Shown here: piece after piece, positions 53,943 through 57,759 of the stretch
Numbering within the stretch: the first letter of the stretch is position 1
Layout of the letters: the number at the start of each line of letters is the position of its first letter
Assembly: GCF_004799665.1 (NCBI RefSeq)
Contig: NZ_CP031310.1
Span: forward strand, 364,887-428,886
DNA length: 64,000 bases
DNA from: Halapricum salinum
Lineage (GTDB): Archaea; Halobacteriota; Halobacteria; Halobacteriales; Haloarculaceae
Direction: 5' to 3'
Program-made: the position numbers and the translations under genes
The notes under the pieces: model-generated
The model's database searches: none
What the model saw: only the letters and a program-made list of their open reading frames with translations
Told to the model about the DNA's origin: nothing

Positions 53943-54803
53943 TCACTCAGCGAGGATTCCGTCTGCGGGGACAGTTGTCTCGAACTCGCGTTCGACCGGA
54001 CCTTGCAGTGTCGCACCGTCGGCAGTGCGAGTGACGACGAGGCGGCCGCCCGGCGGATGGACGGCGACGGCCTGGTCGGTCCTGACACGGTCGAGTTCGT
54101 GGGCGGCGGCGACGATAGCGACAGCGCCAGTCCCGCAGGAGCGGGTCTCGCCCTCGACCCCGCGCTCGAAGGTGCGCTGGTCGTATCCCGTGACGGGGCC
54201 GGCCTCGCGTTCGGAAGCTAGGGTGACGTTGGCACCCTCGGGGAAGACGTCGGCGTGGCGAACCGCGGGGGCGACGGCGTCGAGGTCGAGGGCGGCGACG
54301 TTCTCGACGAACGCGACGGCGTGGGGGACGCCAGTGTTCACGGCCGTCACAGTGAGGCCCTCGATCTCGGTCTCGATCAGCGGTTCGTCTAGCGTCGTCG
54401 GCACCTGTTCAGGATCGAGCGTGGGTTTGCTCATCTCGACGGTGACGCCTTCCTGGCCGACGTGAGCCGGGTACTCCCCAGCAGGCGTCTCGATCACGAA
54501 CTCGCGAGAGCCGGTCCGGGCGGCCGCCCAGGTCGCGACGACCCGGGCGCCGTTGCCACACATGTCCGCGATCGAGCCGTCGGGCTGGACGAGCGTCATC
54601 TCGACTCGCGGTGGGGTGGCCTCGGTGTCGAGAGAGAGAAAGAGCACGCCGTCGGCACCGACACGCTCGCCGCCTGGGTGATCGAGCCCGGTCTCACGAT
54701 CGCAGAGCCGGCTCGCAAACGCCACCCGGTCTTCGACGGATGCGTCGGCCTCGACCACGACGAAGTCGTTCCCGGTGCCGTGGTACTTCTCGATGGAGAT
54801 CAT
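53943..54803 (-). CDS. dapF: Diaminopimelate epimerase
   Basis: 286 residues. DapF inverts LL-DAP to meso-DAP with two cysteines: the first lies in the DMCGNGARVVATWAAARTGS motif, and the second in GETRSCGTGAVAIVAAAHEL. EKYHGTGNDFVVVEADASVE begins the protein and the two mirrored halves are complete. The gene overlaps lysA by ATGA and is followed by dapE, so the last three lysine steps are co-translated. Confidence 0.96.
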   Translation of the reverse strand: MISIEKYHGTGNDFVVVEADASVEDRVAFASRLCDRETGLDHPGGERVGADGVLFLSLDTEATPPRVEMTLVQPDGSIADMCGNGARVVATWAAARTGSREFVIETPAGEYPAHVGQEGVTVEMSKPTLDPEQVPTTLDEPLIETEIEGLTVTAVNTGVPHAVAFVENVAALDLDAVAPAVRHADVFPEGANVTLASEREAGPVTGYDQRTFERGVEGETRSCGTGAVAIVAAAHELDRVRTDQAVAVHPPGGRLVVTRTADGATLQGPVEREFETTVPADGILAE

Positions 54804-56050
54804 TGCTGTCCCTCTAGTCGGGTCAGGTCCGAAAGGGTTTCGCGTTCGACCGCGACGCTCGTCTCACCTGTGCCATCGAGGGAAACGACTGCCGGACGGG
54901 GTCGGGAGTTGTACGTGCTCGCCATCTCGTAGCCGTACGCGCCGGCGTTTCCGATCGCGAACACGTCCCTGCATTCGGGGCGGGGAAGCCGGCGGTCCCG
55001 GCCGAGGACGTCTGCCGTCTCACAGATCGGGCCGGCGACCATCGCCGTGACCTCGTCGCGGTCGTCCGCGTCGTCGGCGAGCGAGCGAATCTCGTGGTAG
55101 GCGTCGTACATCGCCGGGCGCAACAGGGTCGTCATCCCGGCGTCGACGCCGACGACAGTGGTCTCGGGCGTGGGCTTGACCGTATTGACCGTCGTCAGGA
55201 GGACGCCCGCGTCAGCGACGACGTAGCGGCCGGGTTCGATTCCCAACTGAGCGTCGAGATCGCCCGCCGCGTCGCGTGTCGCTTCGGCGACCGCGTCGAG
55301 GTCGAGCGGGTCTTGTTCGGGGTGGTAGGGCACACCGAGACCACCGCCGACGTTCAGAAAGTCCAGGTCGTGATCGAGGTCCCGGGCGAGGTCGCCCATC
55401 CGCGCGACGAGTTCGCGGTGAGCCGCGAGGTCGTCCTCGCCGTGGATACCGCTGCCGGCGTGGGCATGCAACCCCACGAGGTCGTAGCCGCGCTCGACGA
55501 TCTCGTCGGCGAGGTCCGGGACGCGGTCGTAGGGGACGCCGAACTTCGGCGCGTCGCCGGTCGTGACCTTCGCGTGGTGGCCTGCACCGACGCCCGGGTT
55601 CACGCGGATCGCGAGCGGGCCGGCGTAGTCGCGCTCGACCAGGGCGTCGAGCGTGTCGACCGCGCCGATGGTGACCACGAGGTCGATTTCGGGATGGGCC
55701 TCGTGAAGCGCGACGACGTGATCGAGGTCCTCGCTCGGGGGATTGACGGCGGTGTAGCGCACAGTCGAGAATCCGGCGTCGACCGCTCGCTGGACCTCGC
55801 CGGCGGAAGCGCACTCGGCGTCGAGGCCCGCGTCTTCGACGGTTTCGAGGGTCCGTCGGACGGTGTTGGCCTTGACGGCGTAGCTGACGTGTTCGTCGTG
55901 GAAGGCGGTCTGGAGATTGGCGACGTTCTCCCGGACGCGCCCCTGGTCGAGGACGTACAGGGGGGTGTCGTATTCGGCGGCGAGGTCGCGTAACTGAGCT
56001 GGGTCCCAGTCTGCGAGGCGGCGGATCGGCGGCGGGTCCTCGGTTGTCAT
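54800..56050 (-). CDS. lysA: Diaminopimelate decarboxylase
   Basis: 416 residues from ATG 56050. PLP enzyme of fold type III that decarboxylates meso-DAP to lysine. The PLP lysine is in HVSYAVKANTVRRTLETVED, the glycine-rich phosphate loop in NVGGGLGVPYHPEQDP, the EPGRYVVADAG segment binds the cofactor, and the active-site Cys from the partner subunit is in VAGPICETADVLGRD, followed by NAGAYGYEMASTYNSRPRPA. The gene overlaps dapF and follows a long gene-free gap after dapD. An ATG at 56080 adds ten residues. Confidence 0.96.
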   Translation of the reverse strand: MTTEDPPPIRRLADWDPAQLRDLAAEYDTPLYVLDQGRVRENVANLQTAFHDEHVSYAVKANTVRRTLETVEDAGLDAECASAGEVQRAVDAGFSTVRYTAVNPPSEDLDHVVALHEAHPEIDLVVTIGAVDTLDALVERDYAGPLAIRVNPGVGAGHHAKVTTGDAPKFGVPYDRVPDLADEIVERGYDLVGLHAHAGSGIHGEDDLAAHRELVARMGDLARDLDHDLDFLNVGGGLGVPYHPEQDPLDLDAVAEATRDAAGDLDAQLGIEPGRYVVADAGVLLTTVNTVKPTPETTVVGVDAGMTTLLRPAMYDAYHEIRSLADDADDRDEVTAMVAGPICETADVLGRDRRLPRPECRDVFAIGNAGAYGYEMASTYNSRPRPAVVSLDGTGETSVAVERETLSDLTRLEGQQ

Positions 56051-56306
56051 TGCTACTGTGTGGGTGCTACGCTGGTTCAATGTTTTTGGTTGCTAGGAAC
56101 TGTGACTACTGGACATGATTTCTCTCTCTTCGAAGGCCCGCACCACGCTCGCTAGCAACTGAAACTGCCGGAGAAACCTCATCCTCGAAAGCCCTCACCG
56201 CGCTCGCGGTCGCTACGCGGCATATCCTCGGTCGCTACGCTCCCTCGGATAGGGGCCGACGTAGCGACTACATAAACGCGAGCGCGGTTCGCCCTTTCAG
56301 TCCACC

Positions 56307-56356
56307 AGGAGAGCAAGCTCTCCTGAGCCCTCGTTCGCTCCGCTCACGAGGACGCC
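56307..56356. repeat. Twin-hairpin element, copy 1
   Basis: Hairpin 1: AGGAGAGC/GCTCTCCT with loop AA (56307-56324). Linker GAGC. Hairpin 2: CCTCGT/ACGAGG with an 11-nt loop TCGCTCCGCTC (56329-56351), followed by ACGCC. A second copy 105 bp downstream has the same loops, linker and tail but other stem bases that still pair, which points to conservation of the fold. Confidence 0.75.
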
Positions 56357-56411
56357 AGGTACCGCAACCGCAATGTCGTAGCCCCATACCTCCCCGGTCG
56401 CGACTATCGTC

Positions 56412-56461
56412 GCGAGAGCTTGCTCTCGCGAGCCCTGCGTCGCTTCGCTCCGCAGGACGCC
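56412..56461. repeat. Twin-hairpin element, copy 2
   Basis: Hairpin 1: GCGAGAGC/GCTCTCGC with loop TT (56412-56429, plus one outer pair). Linker GAGC. Hairpin 2: CCTGCG/CGCAGG with loop TCGCTTCGCTC (56434-56456), then ACGCC. Compared with copy 1, two pairs in stem 1 and three in stem 2 have changed on both sides at once; the single-stranded parts are nearly identical. Confidence 0.75.
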
Positions 56462-56700
56462 GCGACACGCTTCCTGACCGCCCAACCGTGGCCGGGAGCG
56501 AGTGTCGCGGCGACAGCGAGACGCGACCGAAGGGAGCGTCTCGATTGCGAACGGCGAAGCCGTGAGCGAGGGGAGTCGCTCTGTCGGCTCTATCCGAACG
56601 AGCGGTGCGAGGGCGACCACCGGGAGCCCTCGCTGTGGAACGGCGAACGGAGTGAGCCGTGGAACGAAGTGAGTGAGGATATCCGACAGAGCGGCCGCCA

Positions 56701-56865
56701 GCGAGGGGAGGGCTTTCGAGAAGATGGTGCCAGCGATAGCAACAGCTCTTAGCCAGCGAGGGGAGGGCTTTCGAGAAGATGGTGCCAGCGATAGCAACAG
56801 CTCTTAGCCAGCGAGGGGAGGGCTTTCGAGAAGATGGTGCCAGCGATAGCAACAAATCATAGCCA
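56701..56865. repeat. Three tandem 55-bp direct repeats
   Basis: Units start at 56701, 56756 and 56811, each beginning GCGAGGGGAGGGCTTTCGAG and carrying ATGGTGCCAGCGATAGCAAC. The first two are identical; the third differs at its end (AAATCAT instead of GCTCTT). A decayed fourth start lies near 56866. The period is not a multiple of three and there are no unique spacers, so it is neither coding nor CRISPR. Confidence 0.9.
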
Positions 56866-56925
56866 GCGAGACAAGGGCTCTCCCTGCGTGTCCTCTCCAG
56901 CAGTCAGAAGTGCTAGCCAGTCCGA

Positions 56926-57759
56926 TTAATTATCTCGCAGAATATCCTCTTTCTCCGAGGCCTCCAGCGTCTCCTCTTCGACGTGAGTCGCCACGACGGC
57001 AGGCTTGAACGCGCCACCATCAAAGAGGTCGTGCTCGCCCACCGAGGACTCGACGAAACGAGTGAAGGCACGCCGGTCAGCAGGCAGCTCGCCGAAGATG
57101 ACTTCCTCCTCGACCAGATCGTAGACCGGAATTCGCGGCGTCAGCAGCGTGTTCTCACCCACGATCGAATTCTCTCCCACGCGGAACCCACTGGTCACGC
57201 GACAGCCGGCGCCCAGCGAGACGTTGTCCTCGACGATGACGGGGTCGTCCTCGACGGGTTCGAGGACGCCGCCGATCAGCGTGTTTGCGCCGAGTTTGAC
57301 GTTTGCGCCGATCTGGGCACACGAACCGACAGTGTCACACGAATCCACAAGCGTCCCGTCGCCGACGTGCGCACCGATGTTGACGAAGGAAGGACTCATC
57401 ATGATGGCGTCGCTGCCCACGTAGGCACCGCGACGAATGACGGTCCCATCAGGTGTATTTCGGGTCCCGCGATGGCCCAAATCCCCGGTCGCGCGCAACG
57501 GGAGCACGTCGTGGTAGGTGACGCCGCCGTACTCGCGGGCCTCGGTCTCGCGCAGGCCGAAATTGAGGAGGATTCCCTGCTTGACCCACTCGTTGACGAC
57601 CCAGTCCTCGCCGTCGGGTTCGGCCGCGCGGATCTCGCCGGCCTCCAGGGCTTCGAGGAAGCGTTCGAGGACTGCGCGGTCGTCCTGGTCGGTGTCGGCG
57701 GCGGTCAGACCGTCGTCGTAGCGCTGCCACAGGTCCGCAACGTCGGATTCGAGACTCAT
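56926..57759 (-). CDS. dapD: Tetrahydrodipicolinate N-succinyltransferase
   Basis: 277 residues. DapD succinylates tetrahydrodipicolinate with succinyl-CoA. The N-domain (about 1-90) includes NEWVKQGILLNFGLRETEAR, and the left-handed beta-helix of hexapeptide repeats follows (VIRRGAYVGSDAIMMSPSFV, VDSCDTVGSCAQIGANVKLG, VIVEDNVSLGAGCRVTSGFR). Residues of the SSVGEHDLFD region and the C-terminal helix match the family. The gene lies 60 bp after dapB and is followed by the gene-free gap. Its presence marks the succinylase branch, in line with a dapE. Confidence 0.95.
   Translation of the reverse strand: MSLESDVADLWQRYDDGLTAADTDQDDRAVLERFLEALEAGEIRAAEPDGEDWVVNEWVKQGILLNFGLRETEAREYGGVTYHDVLPLRATGDLGHRGTRNTPDGTVIRRGAYVGSDAIMMSPSFVNIGAHVGDGTLVDSCDTVGSCAQIGANVKLGANTLIGGVLEPVEDDPVIVEDNVSLGAGCRVTSGFRVGENSIVGENTLLTPRIPVYDLVEEEVIFGELPADRRAFTRFVESSVGEHDLFDGGAFKPAVVATHVEEETLEASEKEDILRDN

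Follow-up and report, generated by a model that had tools for sequence, protein, structure and literature searches.

The two adjacent twin hairpins in the lysine operon of Halapricum salinum are likely to belong to a dispersed haloarchaeal family of small palindromic insertion elements, which are non-autonomous and similar to the REP and RPE sequences. The family has a fixed architecture, a CRCC site at both ends and cases of presence and absence at the same site in relatives, and it has spread through intergenic repeats as well as ORFs. In the window (the whole stretch of 64,000 nt that was analysed, to which all coordinates refer), both copies are passengers in a larger composite repeat of about 0.8 kb between dapD and lysA, and their link to the lysine operon is incidental.

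Two copies within a composite repeat

The dap operon lies on the minus strand in the order dapA, dapB, dapD, gap, lysA, dapF and an M20 peptidase gene. The features of the gap and its neighbouring genes are as follows.

54800..56080, minus strand: lysA-like PLP decarboxylase gene, downstream in the operon (Orn_Arg_deC_N and Orn_DAP_Arg_deC)
56130..56920, unstranded: composite repeat hosting both twin hairpins, approximate extent (113 own-genome matches of an 851-bp stretch; 59-bp gap in G005)
56184..56306, plus strand: left terminal hairpin module of the composite repeat, CTCGAAAGCCCTCACC ... GTTCGCCCTTTCAGTCCACC
56303..56306, plus strand: CACC, target-like flank of copy 1, read in the sequence and fitting the CRCC flank of the family
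56307..56356, plus strand: twin-hairpin copy 1, 50 nt (stem 1, 56307-56324; linker GAGC, 56325-56328; stem 2 and loop, 56329-56351; tail ACGCC, 56352-56356); cmsearch 69.7 bits, E 1.5e-14
56357..56359, plus strand: AGG after copy 1; with copy 1 removed it joins ...GTCCACC to give CCACCAGG, the end of an R motif
56397..56466, plus strand: host hairpin GTCGCGAC-TATC-GTC/GCGAC, the 3′ arm split by copy 2 at the slash (same split arm in L082, L088, L097 and L099)
56408..56411, plus strand: CGTC, target-like flank of copy 2, read in the sequence
56412..56461, plus strand: twin-hairpin copy 2, 50 nt (stem 1, 56412-56429; linker GAGC, 56430-56433; stem 2 and loop, 56434-56456; tail ACGCC, 56457-56461); cmsearch 63.7 bits, E 4e-13
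56463..56500, plus strand: conserved core motif A of the composite repeat, CGACACGCTTCCTGACCGCCC ...
56575..56866, minus strand: right terminal module of the composite, in inverted orientation, then 55-bp tandem units (three from 56697)
56926..57759, minus strand: dapD-like gene, upstream in the operon (THDPS_N_2 and hexapeptide repeats)

Read directly, copy 1 is CACC followed by AGGAGAGC-AA-GCTCTCCT-GAGC-CCTCGT-TCGCTCCGCTC-ACGAGG-ACGCC, and copy 2 is CGTC followed by GCGAGAGC-TT-GCTCTCGC-GAGC-CCTGCG-TCGCTTCGCTC-CGCAGG-ACGCC. Both have a stem 1 of 8 bp with a 2-nt loop and a stem 2 of 6 bp with an 11-nt loop, TCGCTnCGCTC, that is able to pair internally (GC-nnn-GC). The original prediction, of two such copies separated by five two-sided pair differences, is confirmed by this reading, its coordinates included: two pairs differ in stem 1 and three in stem 2, every one on both sides. 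The linker and tail are identical, and the loops nearly so, as had also been described (AA versus TT in stem 1, and one base of the 11-nt loop). A covariance model trained on 43 instances, none of them from H. salinum, recovered exactly these two copies in the window, with the E values given above; the next-best match had an E value of 0.12. By DNA folding, copy 2 (z -2.75/-3.39) and copy 1 (z -1.66/-1.46) are both better than most shuffles. One coding copy, folded with its flanks, does not surpass most of its shuffles (z -0.62/-0.22), so folding energy alone is insufficient to reveal the family.

The 851-bp stretch from the gap gave 113 matches in the 3.45-Mb chromosome of H. salinum, in about 35 clusters by manual count. 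The order of motifs in these composites is consistent: inverted terminal units of 53–55 bp, terminal hairpin modules, an inverted R motif (TTCGCCCTTTCA-TCCRCCAGG), and core motifs A and B, the last of which is not recognisable in the copy of the window. Uninterrupted R motifs occur at L085, L096, L095 and other loci. Some composites (L086, L101 and L103) have an extra hairpin-rich module inside the core, starting CAGTACAAGCATACGG or CAGGCATACGCG. The three tandem 55-bp units of the window span 56697-56866, and similar end arrays with other spacer sequences are found at other loci and in other genera (L110, L153). A 411-bp query from another composite copy of the same genome matched 23 of 59 genomes, its own included, and the repeat is partly present in other genera, with no Rfam match. 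A scan of genome contigs with one core motif of the composite was too loose, returning mostly chance bacterial matches.

In G005, of the same genus, dapD and lysA are 59 bp apart and no element lies between them; this is the one relative on which the 'empty site' of the composite rests, being the only one in the genus seen with lysA beside dapD. In G001, G002 and G003 (L265, L266 and L267), lysA is absent from the examined stretch beside dapD, unlike in G005 and H. salinum. The composite repeat, which may be a mobile element or a structured RNA, is mobile-looking and appears to have invaded the dapD-lysA gap.

Distribution and pairing of the family

The family architecture is CRCC/G-stem1-C-GAGC-stem2(loop TCGCTnCGCTC)-ACRCC, where the slash marks the start of the element, and most instances are 48–57 bp long (48–73 nt among those measured). 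The search pattern, GAGC-N6-TCGCTNCGCTC-N6-ACGCC with one mismatch allowed, fixes only the linker, loop and tail. Of the 293 genomes available for the order, 144 contain it, as do 47 of 87 genera, and the richest genome (G296) has 32 matches; the reversed pattern, used as a control, gave 14 matches in total (manual count of the table). The idea that a structure had been copied, or that the hairpins form a repeat family, is thus borne out. A search of the genome and other haloarchaea had been expected to tell such a family from generic palindromes lacking the linker and tail, and it gave the former result, conserved linkers, loops and tails recurring in nearly half of the genomes. H. salinum itself has eight matches to the full pattern with one mismatch, seven of them in the composite repeat at six places and one (L015) apparently in a gene.

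The detailed analyses rest on 144 distinct instances, obtained by merging duplicates of a 65-nt window after 117 loci from a genome-contig scan had been excluded. The anchors of this set are fixed by the pattern, many loci come from a single genus (g37, probably Halorussus), and the 80 loci fetched by place were chosen among a subset of the genomes in the order-wide pattern count, so the set is biased. Motifs of the composite repeat accompany 34 of the 144 instances compared with 6 of 288 background contexts. In 16 of 144, a stem-1-like hairpin and linker directly follow the tail, and G002 carries four pattern matches at a 57-bp period.

The arms of stem 2, which the pattern leaves unconstrained, form Watson-Crick pairs at 817 of 864 positions, compared with a mean of 446 and a maximum of 476 when arms were shuffled between instances. 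In 100 of the 144 instances all six pairs are Watson-Crick, in 141 no more than one pair deviates, and the arms come in 72 different combinations. Stem 1, which lies outside the search pattern, is present by our own criterion at 97 of 144 instances versus 104 of 862 shifted places. By a strict criterion, a clear stem 1 is missing in 50 of 144, partly because stem lengths and loops vary; analyses requiring it were confined to the other 94, and the covariation alignment to the 43 of these with a 19-nt stem-1 hairpin. In the 43, all from other genomes, 94.2% of cells are paired and the covariation score is 0.622, compared with 0.151 for shuffled alignments (none of 500 reached 0.622) and at most 0.130 for slid ones. 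Over 672 cells, 161 arm changes are two-sided and 2 one-sided, all of these pairing and covariation counts treating related copies as independent. The scarcity of one-sided changes suggests a paired rewriting of the arms rather than slow compensation via wobble pairs. At one intragenic-looking site, apparently orthologous between two species (L311/L312), stem 1 differs by a single two-sided pair and its loop, while the flanks and stem 2 are nearly identical; either the copy mutated where it stands or another copy took over the site.

Mismatches in stem 2, read on the plus strand, are A.C in 22 cases and G.T in 6 (p 0.004), or 18 to 6 among the 72 distinct arm pairs (p 0.023). Read on the minus strand, the 22 A.C mismatches become G.T, which points to the minus strand as the probable folding strand. 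Its loop carries a GC-GNA-GC core which we take to resemble the very stable d(GCGAAGC) minihairpin, with the reservation that the core bases are fixed by the search pattern and their conservation is not independent evidence.

Sequences similar to the element are also found in named plasmid records from Halorussus, Natrinema, Haloarcula, Halobacterium, Salinigranum and other haloarchaea, several of the matches covering only part of the query. The match in pNRC200 of Halobacterium salinarum NRC-1 covers 83% of the query, and this sequence (L472) has a TnpB-family gene on one side and an OB-fold gene on the other. These were matches of DNA queries; a tblastn search of plasmids with a 20-residue peptide query gave none, and a search of phages for the element was likewise negative.

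Insertion sites and inserts within genes

The four bases preceding the insert are CRCC in 79 of the 94 instances with a clear stem 1, a figure that leans upward, as the criterion used to place the start credited a preceding CC (the C at -4, found in 91 of 94, was credited weakly). From position -5 outwards there is no strong preference in these instances. The tail is CRCC in 76 of 94, and is followed by G in 63 and by A in 22. The R of the left flank and the R of the tail agree beyond chance (13, 14 / 4, 31; p 0.0018, or 0.0019 with repeats dropped), although the instances are related and the p values are therefore optimistic. With CRCC at both sides and the R correlated, a target-site duplication of the MITE type and an element-borne end look alike; the repeated CRCC may reflect a target preference plus an end carried by the element rather than a duplication.

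At all five loci of the copy-2 type in H. salinum, removal of 50 nt restores a perfect host hairpin. The arms of the split hairpin in the window are 56397-56404 and, on the other side, 56409-56411 plus 56462-56466, giving GTCGCGAC-TATC-GTCGCGAC once rejoined. The others are GTCGCGGC-TGTC-GCCGCGAC (L088), GTCGCGGCGC-GGAC-GCGCCGCGAC (L097), GTTCCGGCGC-GAGT-GCGCCGGAAC (L082) and GTTCCGGCGC-GTTG-GCGCCGGAAC (L099), so that the host stems vary and the insert is nearly constant. Copy 1 splits the R motif between CCACC and AGG, a position that is also filled in G017 (L274/L338) and G021 (L280). Most of the composites examined have no twin hairpin, and the hairpin at the site is intact. Presence and absence are also seen in a protein gene. 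Among 18 genomes of g37, the MetX gene has a 48-bp insert in G073, located between TACGGC and GAGGAC with GGC at both sides, a partly decayed relative of it in G205 and G143, and none in the remaining 15.

Sixteen of the 144 instances were called intragenic by a GC3 test with open flanks, which misses atypical genes. The gene is antisense to the element in 15 of the 16, all in one frame; the sixteenth (L313, forward) departs from this rule and looks degenerate. The encoded segments in the shared frame are of the type (G)V-x-x-S-E/D-A, then GS. Every intragenic insert with a clear stem 1 has a length of 3n (11 of 11), compared with 51 of 83 others. Alignment to solved structures places the inserts of PurA and MetX as 19-residue gaps in 4m0g and 2pl5, respectively. 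A Hel308-type helicase carries an insert at a place where the alignment is uncertain, and reading of the translations points to PheT-like, DNA-ligase-like, TrpE-like, XPB-like and other host proteins. Annotated CDS with an insert are HemG of Halorussus vallis, the Halobaculum and Natrinema P-type ATPases, in which the insert is a shorter-loop variant, and an FAD-dependent oxidoreductase of Salinigranum, the gene being antisense to the element in all four. In the P-type ATPase genes (L469, L470), the variant has a stem 2 fully paired around a GCGAAGC core, and the flanking GA bases are missing. The proteins of L415 and L470 have an apparent second insert-like segment (SASEASGGPSG...SDGG and GVPGSGTTEGSS...SDGG, respectively), which suggests repeated insertion into one gene. 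Two loci of H. salinum, L013 and L015, were read manually as in-frame inserts (VPASEASGGS); L015 was missed by the GC3 criterion, and L013, having two mismatches, is outside the 144.

Origin, mobility and known relatives

The position of the copies in the lysine operon had suggested a cis-acting structured RNA, such as a regulator, attenuator or processing site, with its base pairing under selection. Compensatory pairs would fit this, as would the position of the copies, flanked by dapD and lysA in the transcribed strand, and the better tolerance of G.U-type mismatches by the minus strand, which would be that of the mRNA. However, G.U intermediates are almost missing (the 2 one-sided versus 161 two-sided changes), the operon of G005 has only its short gap at this place, and seven of the eight matches in H. 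salinum belong to a dispersed repeat. Elsewhere, copies occupy unrelated intergenic and coding sites, including many unrelated genes. Rfam 15 gave no match at gathering score in 13 loci, the stretch of the window having only weak matches below gathering scores. The RNA or processing site was therefore not borne out, and we regard it as very improbable. Even less credible is that the twin hairpin is a mere sub-part of the composite repeat and co-evolves with it. Its frequent placement within the composite in H. salinum, and the position of copy 1 shared with G017 and G021, are in keeping with such a dependence, but it is already contradicted by copies that are intragenic or isolated: 109 of 136 instances from other genomes have no composite motif within 180 bp, and composites with an intact hairpin and no insert are the rule among those examined.

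An immobile origin is somewhat less remote, though still unlikely. Replication errors of the fold-back (template-switch) kind would keep remaking stem-loops locally in GC-rich DNA, and the shared TCGCTTCGCTC would reflect a mutational bias. The loop motif TCGCTnCGCTC is indeed common by itself (136 matches versus 75 for the control), two-sided arm changes dominate, and the host repeats are full of other hairpins. Such errors would not be expected to conserve a non-palindromic linker, tail and CRCC flank at fixed spacing in 47 genera, nor to give an exact insertion relative to relatives, as in MetX. A fold-back process may explain the divergence of the arms, and not the element itself.

For the insertion element, the moving unit is likely to be a single strand, GGYGTC-stem2-GGCTC-stem1, which is the minus strand of the window and the coding strand in genes. 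This strand would be recognised by shape, as two adjacent hairpins, and inserted by a trans-acting nuclease or transposase at a CRCC/GGYG site, with that tetranucleotide left on both sides. The machinery would need only the linkers, the loop core and the end, leaving the stem arms free provided that both change together. Paired changes of the arms could come from templated (fold-back) copying or from selection as the element propagates, and would then give the 'compensatory' differences seen between copies. Within genes, an insert would survive only if its length is 3n and it reads in the Ser/Gly/Asp-rich frame, adding a segment of about 16–22 residues.

A mobiliser of the IS200/RAYT type (Y1) was considered and is not supported: Y1_Tnp (PF01797) has no match in the genome of H. 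salinum and is absent in 7 of 16 genomes searched, including four element-rich genomes of g37 (G073, G185, G160 and G088). The mobiliser may be a lost or a remote enzyme.

No paper describing the twin-hairpin element was found in the literature searched, which lay outside most subscription journals, and a survey of bacterial and archaeal REPs published in 2025 (PMC12306157) has no word starting with 'halo' in its main text. By behaviour, the closest kin are the CGTC-tagged REPs and the Rickettsia palindromic elements, although the twin hairpin departs from them in traits that define them (size, stem, loop or termini). In the account of PMC3733652, CGTC-tagged REPs are short palindromes of five bacterial phyla with CGTC, TGTC or CCTC at one end, stems of 8–9 bp whose first two pairs are A/T, loops of 4–5 nt and CCA-like tails; they also occur inside ORFs, and no dedicated transposase is known for them. 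Like these, the twin hairpin has a minus-strand tail of CGTC or TGTC in most of the 94 instances (its last C pairs in the stem), but it has a 6-bp stem 2 starting with C-G, an 11-nt loop holding GC-nnn-GC, a GGCTC linker, a second hairpin in fixed order, and archaeal hosts. The GTAG-type (RAYT-associated) REPs were rejected, as the foot of the twin hairpin is GACRCC (minus strand GGYGTC) and not GTAG. Rickettsia palindromic elements are described as inserts translated in frame in unrelated metabolic genes (PMC10969869, PMC3733652) and as about 150 bp long (PMC10969869). The twin hairpin is likewise found in frame in ORFs of unrelated function, and is set apart from that description by its length of 48–73 nt, two hairpins, CRCC sites, freely covarying arms and archaeal hosts.

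Two types of mini-element discussed in PMC3119063 also invite comparison. SMR-A of Haloquadratum walsbyi is about 110 bp long, ends in prominent terminal inverted repeats and shows no duplication of its target, and SMR-B HqIRS41 has 80 bp. The twin hairpin is, like SMR-A, a haloarchaeal, transposase-free mini-element that enters the palindromes of other repeats (a host hairpin arm is split at five loci, the hosts themselves being putatively mobile); compared with its description, it is shorter and without terminal inverted repeats. PATEs, which that source relates to IS605-type transposons, share with the twin hairpin near-terminal palindromes and the absence of terminal inverted repeats, but the Y1 transposase family of PATEs and other elements derived from IS200-IS605 is absent from the twin hairpin's own genome. 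The ends of the twin hairpin, G(T/G)(C/G/A)... and ...GACRCC, are not inverted copies of one another, unlike those of MITEs.

More tentatively, these order-wide elements of about 50 nt could have a mobility set by the shape, rather than the sequence, of two adjacent DNA hairpins, with arms rewritten together by a dedicated, non-Y1 enzyme. With the encoded Gly/Ser/Asp/Glu-rich peptide tolerated, they would keep supplying essential enzymes with new in-frame segments, and would be to archaea what the palindromic elements are to Rickettsia. In-frame palindromic inserts in protein genes have been reported from Rickettsia and other bacteria (PMC3733652, PMC10969869); here they appear to be order-wide in archaea, with tractable species among the hosts and core genes occupied. 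The family makes strain-level polymorphism, and the recognition of a hairpin of free sequence, accessible to testing, and raises the question of whether inserts in PurA, PheT, Hel308, DNA ligase, MetX or TrpE alter function. For annotation, segments of the GVSASEASGGSSD type should be read as insertions, and two-sided 'compensatory' changes need not imply a functional RNA.
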